From a virus, in the IMG/VR virus record IMGVR_UViG_3300035698_005563, positions 1 through 24,549 of that record: 24,549 nt of DNA. One strand, written 5' to 3'. This document shows, piece by piece, positions 14,160-15,873 of this stretch. Under the pieces are notes generated by a model, which saw only the letters and a list, made by a program, of their open reading frames with translations, was not told the origin of the DNA and did no database searches. Within the stretch, counting starts at the first letter, position 1. Every line of letters begins with the position of its first letter. Position numbers and translations under genes: made by a program.

Positions 14160-14468
14160 GTGACAACAACCACGACTATTCTTCCTCCACCGGTACAACA
14201 AAAGTTCAATGCTAAGTTATTGAGTACTCCTCAAGCTAGACTTATCTATGGTGCTTTTGCAATGCCATTTGAGATGGAAGAAAGAAGCGGCGATATCATG
14301 CGCATGAGACGTTACACCAGATTAGCCACTGCCCCAGTTCCACTAGGAGCGGCAATGAATAATCCTCCTGTACAAACCATGCGAGCTGTTGATATAGACG
14401 CTAGAATTGATTGGTATGCGACATATGTGCTTATAACTAAGCAGGTTACGCTCATCAATCAAGACCCT
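14160..14468 (+). CDS. Major capsid protein, exon 1 (N4-gp56 family)
   Basis: Exon 1 encodes 103 residues from a GTG start behind GAGG. It holds the N-arm M-T-T-T-T-T, the E-loop region M-E-E-R-S-G-D-I-M-R-M-R-R-Y and the strand W-Y-A-T-Y-V-L-I-T-K-Q-V-T, ending in I-N-Q-D-P. In relatives the next residues are V-L-N-E-A, found at the start of exon 2 after the intron. The frame would otherwise read on into the intron and stop at 14540. Joined to exon 2 it gives 315 residues, the usual length for this HK97-fold coat family. The exon ends in CCU, whose U forms the required U-G pair with the intron guide. Confidence 0.88.
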
Positions 14469-14565
14469 AAACGACAAAATGGGGTCTCTAAACTTTCACT
14501 AATTGACTTGGAAACCTACGCTATGCAGGAGGCTGCATAATATGGTGACAGGGGCCAAGTCGTTA

Positions 14566-15051
14566 TTATTGCTTGAGGGCATGATTATGAAATCTAGAAT
14601 TGAGTTTTCTCATTTGTTTAAGAAGTTCAGTTCTTTTTTGAAGAACATTATCGGGAAGTCTTTTGCTTCCCCAATTTTTAAATGTTTTTCTAATTTCTTT
14701 CATGACCTGACATTGTTTTTGTTTAATAATAAGAAAAGGTTCCAAAAGAGGGAGAAAATAATCAAGGGCTTCACCACCAATAGACCAATTATAAACAGCT
14801 CTACAAAAAGCTTTTTTACTAGTCCAGCGGTATTGATTTTGAGAACAGCCAGTAAAATGTTCTCTAAGCCATTCAATAAGACAAATATCACAAGATGTAA
14901 TTTGAATTTTAGCATGCCATTGTTGGCGTGTTCCATATTTGCCTTGTTTTATATGTCCTACATAGAAGCAACCTTCTCCATCTATAATTCCTGCAAGGTA
15001 AGCGAGTTGAACTGGAGTTTGTCCAGTTGTAAAAATAACTTTTCTAGCCAT
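14566..15051 (-). CDS. LAGLIDADG homing endonuclease, antisense within the intron
   Basis: The 161-residue protein carries one LAGLIDADG motif, L-A-G-I-I-D-G-E-G at residues 19-27, with E26 as the likely catalytic acid. A single motif implies a homodimer. K-I-Q-I-T-S-C-D and L-R-E-H-F-T-G follow as in the beta-sheet saddle of this family, then W-S-I-G-G and a helical basic C-terminus. It lies wholly in the P6 loop of the intron but reads opposite to the coat gene, so it cannot be translated from the coat transcript. It has its own AAGGA 6 bases before the ATG and a TATAAT box 31 bases upstream. Its stop codon overlaps the P6 stem. It would cut intronless coat genes at the splice junction. Confidence 0.93.
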   Translation of the reverse strand: MARKVIFTTGQTPVQLAYLAGIIDGEGCFYVGHIKQGKYGTRQQWHAKIQITSCDICLIEWLREHFTGCSQNQYRWTSKKAFCRAVYNWSIGGEALDYFLPLLEPFLIIKQKQCQVMKEIRKTFKNWGSKRLPDNVLQKRTELLKQMRKLNSRFHNHALKQ

Positions 15052-15081
15052 GTAAATCCTTTTTACGTTAATGACGAATAC

Positions 15082-15087
15082 ATTATA
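15082..15087 (-). promoter_or_regulatory. Putative -10 box of the endonuclease gene
   Basis: The minus strand reads TATAAT exactly, 31 bases before the ATG at 15051. Seventeen bases further upstream lies TGTACG, a poor -35. It sits inside the intron next to the P6 strand and would drive an RNA antisense to the intron. Confidence 0.5.
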
Positions 15088-15234
15088 AACGAAAGCAATA
15101 ATAACGTACAGGCTGAACGACTGAGTGTGAGAGATCCTAATTGGATATGCGACAGTCTGAACTCACGAGGAAACCGTGAGAGGAAAGTTGAAGTGCTTTC
15201 CCGCCTAGAGATAGGTCATAAAAGTAACAGTTTG

Positions 15235-15873
15235 GTTTTAAATGAAGCAGCTGCTCGTCTTGGTCAATCGATGAGAGAGACCGAAGATGAACTTATCCGT
15301 GACATGCTTGCGGGTACAGCTTCTGTAATTAACTGTGTAAATGGTGTAAACGGAGATAATCCGACTGAAATAACCAGAGCTGACGTAGACGCTGTTGTAG
15401 CGACCCTACAAAACAACGATGGTGATTTCATTACTAACATGATCGGTGGCGAAGACAAATTCGGCACTGGACCTGTAAGAGATGCTTATTTTGCTATGGC
15501 AGACACAAATTTAATTGGACAACTAGAGAATGTTAATGGATTCATTAACAAAGCTTCCTATCCAAATCAAACTGGTGTTATGTCATCTGAATGGGGTAAC
15601 GTCGGAAACGTTAGATTCATGTTAAGTTCTAGAGGTTCTATAACCACTGGCGCTTCACTACTAACTGCTGATATTTACAACATCTTTATTACAGCACAAA
15701 ACTCTTACGCAAAAATAGAGCAAAACGGCGTATCTGCTAAATTCATTTACCATCCTCCGGGACATGGTGATGACCCTGCAGAACTTCGTCAGACTGCTGC
15801 TTGGCGTATGGCTCAAGTACCAAGAATAACAAACGATGCGTGGATAATAAGTCTACGTGCAACATTAGCATAA
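15235..15873 (+). CDS. Major capsid protein, exon 2 (N4-gp56 family)
   Basis: Exon 2 begins in frame with V-L-N-E-A-A-A-R-L-G, the conserved continuation of the D-P motif, and runs 212 residues to TAA. It carries the helix E-T-E-D-E-L-I-R-D-M-L-A-G-T, the A-domain strands and V-R-D-A-Y-F-A-M-A-D, and the conserved S-Y-P motif and late W-G-N-V-G-N-V-R-F, typical of the N4-gp56/P22-like coat family. An uninterrupted frame also extends upstream into the intron from ATG 14503, but that part reads through core RNA helices and the antisense endonuclease and has no coat similarity. About 415 copies would build a T=7 shell in relatives. Confidence 0.88.
   Translation, partial: VLNEAAARLGQSMRETEDELIRDMLAGTASVINCVNGVNGDNPTEITRADVDAVVATLQNNDGDFITNMIGGEDKFGTGPVRDAYFAMADTNLIGQLENVNGFINKASYPNQTGVMSSEWGNVGNVRFMLSSRGSITTGASLLTADIYNIFITAQNSYAKIEQNGVSAKFIYHPPGHGDDPAELRQTAAWRMAQVPRITNDAWIISLRATLA

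Follow-up and report, generated by a model that had tools for sequence, protein, structure and literature searches.

An Intron-Encoded, In-Frame C-Terminal Tail in a Phage Major Capsid Gene: A Putative SsrA-Like Degron for the Product of Unspliced mRNA

Introduction

In bacteria, ribosomes follow the polymerase. With transcription and translation coupled in this way in bacteria and phages, introns in protein genes should yield harmful fragments, and it is an open question how capsid genes tolerate them. That question is raised here by a stretch of viral DNA of 24,549 nucleotides (the window), the major capsid gene of which is split by a group I intron. We suggest that the intron probably encodes, in frame with the upstream exon, a C-terminal degron that would remove the protein made from unspliced mRNA. 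A cis-encoded degron would answer the question directly, making the intron 'self-cleaning'.

The in-frame tail and its reading as a degron are the new part; an antisense endonuclease within a capsid intron is an architecture already known, from the mycobacteriophage LittleE. No prior report of an SsrA-like degron tail in phage introns was found in the open-licence literature, including that on unspliced introns and on antisense LAGLIDADG introns; an earlier report elsewhere is possible.

The Interrupted Capsid Gene

The layout of the split gene is as follows.

14160..14468, plus strand: first exon (exon 1) of the major capsid gene, 103 codons beginning with GTG
14469..15234, plus strand: group I intron, 766 nt, with U.G at the 5′ splice site and omega-G at 15234
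15235..15873, plus strand: second exon (exon 2) of that gene, 212 codons and a stop

It is practically certain that 14469–15234 is a group I intron interrupting a phage major capsid gene. The original prediction had placed such an intron in the coat gene, and it is borne out by the gap-free alignment of the joined product, by introns at the same site in relatives, and by a covariance-model match (see below). The ends can be fixed to the base, as had been claimed: the terminal guanosine found at the 3′ end of group I introns is G15234, and GUUUUAAAUGAAGC opens exon 2. Joining 14468 to 15235 restores the frame at D-P/V-L-N-E-A, giving 103 + 212 = 315 residues, and the exons join exactly, in that the proposed coat alignment has neither gap nor duplication at D-P/V-L-N-E against nine intact homologues. 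The expectation that automated calls would give two frames also holds; the upstream frame, 14160–14540, encodes 126 aa and takes in the intron-encoded tail.

In profile searches, the joined 315-aa product matches the PHROG 1357 major head protein (phrog_1357; 6.3e-29, 102 bits) and the Pfam Phage_capsid_4/N4-gp56 type (PF25209; 27.3 bits against a cut-off of 27, 5.5e-6). Relatives of the protein are encoded on 33 viral contigs. In twelve loci (L001–L012) the capsid protein is uninterrupted or nearly so, and thus intronless alleles are present; several other contigs are interrupted at the identical residue, 103/104, by an intron at the identical site. The junction reads GAYCCN/GTNNTNAAY in intact genes and GACCCT/intron/GTTTTAAATGAAGC, or nearly so, in interrupted ones. 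The window intron is predicted to self-splice in a GTP-dependent manner and to be spliced in vivo.

At the left end of the window, an ORF on the minus strand (2–247) with tandem WGDCSGI/RGDCAGL-type repeats runs off the sequence.

The Intron Fold

The elements of the fold are as follows.

14462..14468, plus strand: P1 exon strand AGACCCU, pairing with 14481–14487
14481..14487, plus strand: internal guide sequence GGGGUCU, with U.G at the splice site
14493..14499, plus strand: P3 5′ strand, pairing with 15125–15131 with one U.U mismatch; the family P3 covaries in 7/7 pairs
14507..14510, plus strand: P4 5′ strand CUUG, pairing with CAGG at 14549–14552, from the family structure
14562..14574, plus strand: P6a 5′ strand GUUAUUAUUGCUU, pairing with 15093–15105 (AAGCAAUAAUAAC), a 13-bp perfect complement that brackets the endonuclease ORF in the loop
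15119..15123, plus strand: P7 5′ strand GACUG, pairing with CAGUC at 15153–15157, with compensatory A-U/G-C/U-A changes in the family
15134..15146, plus strand: P8 hairpin, from the match to model R1
15162..15180, plus strand: P9 hairpin CUCACG/CGUGAG, from the family fold and model R1
15182..15201, plus strand: P9.1 hairpin GGAAAG/CUUUCC, from the family fold and model R1

P1 has the guide pairing typical of group I introns: the exon end AGACCCU pairs with GGGGUCU as originally proposed, and the diagnostic U-G is U14468.G14481. A P10 of GUUUU with AAAAU (15235–15239 with 14476–14480) is possible. The P7 GACU/AGUC and the P8 and P9 hairpins of the original prediction are present, as are helices at P4 and P6, but the 7-bp P4 that it drew, GACUUGG/CCAAGUC, is probably not the real one, as it would clash with the helices of the family. 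There, P4 reads CUUG/CA[A/G]G, and P6 is a covarying 3-bp GCC/GGC that continues into P6a.

A match to a library model is not a defining biochemical feature of group I introns. The Infernal search that had been suggested as a check, with Rfam RF00028, gave no match in the window at either the gathering or a permissive threshold, and a family covariance model was therefore built instead. A MIR480 match within exon 2, with an E-value of 0.13 right at the threshold, was dismissed as chance.

To collect members of the family, the P8/P7′ motif ATGCGANAGTCTGAAC was searched for in viral contigs. At least 119 more contigs were recovered in this way, and in almost all of them the P4 motif TRATNGACTTGRA lies upstream. 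A scan of genomes gave mostly chance matches, and only loci with P4 and 3′-end context were kept. Forty-two endonuclease-free members were aligned (alignment A1) and scored against a named group I structure, P3 pseudoknot included. Of the cells, 97.2% are paired, and in 28/39 pairs both sides have changed; structures slid along the alignment give at most 62 doubly changed cells against the 350 observed, and the observed values were reached in 0/500 shuffles. The covarying core comprises the P3 pseudoknot, P4–P6, P7, and P8. Covariance model R1, made for the 3′ half of the intron from 30 other phage introns with the window left out, finds a single significant place in the window, 15115–15230 (98.7 bits, E = 8.7e-26), and also detects the introns in related capsid loci. 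The family has a group I core despite the RF00028 miss.

It is highly improbable that the gene is instead dead or misassembled and the insert no intron. Such a reading could draw on the Rfam result and on the intron being known here from sequence; against it, several independent metagenomes have the identical insert at exactly this base, the flanking frames are intact, the fold covaries, and model R1 finds it at the E-value given above.

The loci collected (L034–L152, and L286 onwards) form a large family of phage group I introns, with at least 119 and at least 120 contigs in two scans, of which RF00028 misses the window member at least. For the protein frame to be restored at one intron (L022, 3669–3910), the 5′ splice site seemingly has to use C.A in place of U.G.

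The Antisense Endonuclease

The loop of P6 holds a gene that the earlier account of the locus did not include.

14566..15051, minus strand: LAGLIDADG homing endonuclease ORF, 161 aa, in the P6 loop, antisense to the capsid gene

The ORF has one LAGLIDADG motif, AYLAGIIDGEGCF, and matches PF00961 (LAGLIDADG_1; 26.4 bits against a cut-off of 23.1, 1.4e-5) and phrog_5046 (1.2e-22). It is a putative homing endonuclease that would cut the intronless allele. A peptide-pattern search across viral contigs found no relatives of the endonuclease; relatives were found by tblastn in the retrieved intron loci. Where a homologue lies between P4 and P7′, it is antisense in 15/15 family introns. In two loci (L022 and L030) it is the P1 loop that contains an LAGLIDADG-type ORF, in sense orientation, and the guide lies about 900–1000 nt downstream of the splice site.

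A single capsid gene can be interrupted by group I introns at three or four separate positions (L029, 400–3020; L032, 3290–4620; L022, 1894–4790), and some of these introns carry their own endonuclease gene.

The In-Frame Tail

Exon 1 stays open into the intron, a feature that the original prediction did not mention.

14469..14540, plus strand: in-frame C-terminal tail KRQNGVSKLSLIDLETYAMQEAA-stop, a putative degron, in the ORF 14160–14540; expected only from translation of unspliced mRNA

The tail is 23 residues long and ends in YAMQEAA, with the stop at 14538–14540. In relatives, the tails end in NYAKAA, EQFALAA, EHYALAA, FTALAA, LQLAA, MELAA, VMAA, or RWAA. Introns with the endonuclease in P1 have a separate tail straight after the splice site (NHKGFTALAA, REQLQLAA). 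In P22-type coat genes the tails are ANDEKFALVA, ANDSSFALVA, ANDQSFALVA, and ANDKMFAMVA, and in another gene SNDAVFALAA; a Burkholderiales MAG bearing a family member encodes ANDERFALAA in its own tmRNA. The tape-measure exon ends in KLVAA/KIVAA in two Paenibacillus isolates.

To quantify the endings, the exon frame was taken as the sole frame with 60 or more open codons ahead of the intron P4 motif, and the tail was followed as far as its stop codon, with the two remaining frames of the same introns as controls. Counts are of distinct intron/site clusters, which are homologous introns and not fully independent. The P1-loop endonuclease frames of L022, L023, and L127 (pseudo-exons) were excluded, LittleE and its fellow mycobacteriophage Baka were left out, and five poorly fitting tails (L014, L018a, L028, L029a, L032) were retained as negatives. 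In a first set of 52 clusters, 38/52 tails end in Ala against 3/106 controls (p = 2.5e-21), and 22/52 in Ala-Ala against 2/106 (p = 1.0e-10); among ordinary ORFs on these contigs, 12% have a final Ala and 3.9% a final Ala-Ala. A second set came from a new P4-pattern scan (at least 120 contigs), restricted to new contigs and unseen clusters under the same exon-frame rule. Among its 24 clusters, 14 end in Ala-Ala, against 0/48 controls (p = 6.6e-9). Pooled, the Ala end is found in 53/76 exon frames and 6/154 other frames (p = 6.5e-27), and Ala-Ala in 36/76 and 2/154 (p = 1.8e-18). The enrichment is significant separately for each place of the stop: before P4 (16/34 vs 4/130), in P5 (21/26 vs 0/17), and in P6 (16/16 vs 2/7).

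The C-terminal Ala-Ala of SsrA-type degrons, usually LAA, is thus seen in the tails: among the 76 clusters LAA is the commonest final triplet (20), followed by LVA (6), IAA (4), EAA (3, the ending in the window), and CAA (3). The Ala ending is absent in 23/76 clusters (about 30%), some of which stop directly past the splice site. It is also absent from the introns of a Desulfovibrio phage and of Roseobacter phage CRP-118.

Codon usage in one stop class is informative. The P4+26 class, with its stop 26 nt from where the P4 motif begins, comprises 17 distinct sequences of the form xxC CTN GCN GCN stop; in two of them GTA replaces the first GCN, so that the ending is Leu-Ala/Val-Ala-stop. Entropy is 1.4–1.9 bits at wobble bases against 0–0.5 at codon positions 1–2, and TAA, TAG, and TGA are all in use. 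Nearly invariant first and second positions with free third positions and varied stops are a protein-coding pattern, which suggests that the amino acids are selected.

Several further tails may be noted. A second recurrent site, near capsid residue 302 (L003, L018, L020, L022), has the same YVM(L/Q/E)EAA tail as the window site. The P4+32 stop class (L028, L032, L041, L059, L093) has a conserved VAFS/VAIS/VAIG end, which is not SsrA-like. Family introns also interrupt a gene, possibly that of ribonucleotide reductase, whose exon motif is MFNTEFVP, and the tails there end in MFCAA, GHLAA, and GHKVA (L299, L352, L240); the Ala-ended tail may therefore not be limited to structural genes. In CRP-118 (L283, about 2400–2880), an annotated ribonucleotide reductase gene pair looks like one gene split by the window's intron family.

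What the Tail May Do

We propose the following course of events. The mobile group I intron, with the antisense LAGLIDADG endonuclease in its P6 loop as mobility gene, would self-splice from most capsid mRNA to give the full coat protein. Because bacterial ribosomes follow the polymerase, some pre-mRNA would be translated before splicing. Where the ribosome comes first, exon 1 would be read on into the intron, yielding capsid residues 1–103 plus the Ala-Ala tail. The tail (YAMQEAA in the window; FALAA, YALAA, FALVA, or LLAA in relatives) would imitate the SsrA (tmRNA) tag, and it may be recognized by ClpX or ClpA, with SspB. Proteases of the ClpXP/ClpAP type would then destroy the truncated coat protein before it could poison assembly. 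Judging from general knowledge of capsid assembly, such a fragment is likely a poison; it follows that a protease tag would protect the phage and hence the intron, and both would presumably benefit from the tail.

In favor of a degron are the enrichment in the exon frame, the codon pattern of the P4+26 class, the separate tails of introns with the endonuclease in P1, and the near-copies of SsrA tags among the tails, such as ANDEKFALVA, ANDSSFALVA, and SNDAVFALAA, to be set beside the ANDERFALAA noted above. On the other side, 23/76 clusters, the P4+32 class among them, have no Ala ending, nor do the Desulfovibrio phage and CRP-118 introns, and T4 td and nrdB have no tail. In addition, the window's EAA is a poorer SsrA match than LAA, the GCAGCGUGA of P6-class tails is the paired P6 strand itself, and the AND..FA tails lie partly within a perfect hairpin; RNA constraint therefore accounts for some of the match. 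One could go further and hold that this is an ordinary group I intron whose Ala-Ala ends are by-products of conserved RNA, namely the P5 loop, the P6 strand, and P1/P2 hairpins. We regard this as unlikely. The P6 3′ strand is indeed structural, the LittleE/Baka tail sits inside a GCUGC-GUAA-GCAGC hairpin, and the introns are related by descent; yet other frames of the same RNA seldom end in Ala (the 6/154 above), the stops are spread over many places, the P4+26 codons vary solely at wobble bases and the stop codon, and L022 and L030 have their separate LAA tail ahead of the P1-inserted endonuclease.

Somewhat less probable still is that the extension matters only for its stop, which would keep the ribosome from reaching the catalytic core, whatever the amino acids. 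Translation and folding are known to interfere with each other in phage introns, and T4 introns have a stop at the splice site. Many tails, however, cross P3, P4, and P5 and do not end until P5 or P6, where an early stop would be expected, and the LAA/LVA endings and SsrA-like tags would be left without explanation. A degron remains our preferred reading for the window. For the generalization that phage group I introns widely carry a cis-encoded SsrA-tag mimic directing proteins translated from unspliced mRNA to host proteases, we lean towards acceptance with more reserve.

If true, introns could persist, several per gene and at little cost, in the most highly expressed and assembly-critical phage genes. 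A sequence signature would also be gained, that is, an exon frame ending in LAA-stop within the intron, by which introns that Rfam misses could be found. Degron tails would likewise account for some of the short 'capsid' proteins in phage annotations.

Comparison with Known Systems

The closest precedents are mycobacteriophage introns. The LittleE major capsid intron has a bottom-strand LAGLIDADG gene and its splicing was demonstrated by RT-PCR, and Baka has a group I-type intron in a minor tail gene (PMC3706429). Both resemble the window in being group I-type introns in virion genes, and LittleE also in the strand of its endonuclease. They differ in belonging to another intron subfamily, to which model R1 has no match, and LittleE in its other capsid gene. 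Reading through the deposited sequences gives the tails WNSVATAAA (LittleE) and LSDDLAAAAA (Baka), both in one shared P1/P2 hairpin; the passages of PMC3706429 on these introns do not discuss an in-frame tail.

The T4 td and nrdB introns are likewise phage group I introns with mobility genes, but they have a stop codon at the splice site and no tail, and their endonucleases are of other families and, in the record, on the gene's own strand. In the GenBank phage MW202674 (ctn9Y15), a P22-type coat gene is split by a member of the window's intron family and the deposited exon-1 protein, UOF80249, ends in YFLLAA; it differs in its coat family (PHROG 283) and is annotated as two genes, with no intron noted.

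In E. coli the SsrA tag, AANDENYALAA, bears sites for both SspB and ClpX, and SsrA tags usually end in LAA (PMC9382460); the LVA variant, AANDENYALVA, is a strong degradation tag (PMC11003136). The intron tails share with tmRNA tagging an ALAA- or FALVA-like C-terminal peptide on a truncated protein. In contrast to the tmRNA system, the intron tag would be encoded in cis, on the same mRNA, and would need neither tmRNA nor a stalled ribosome.
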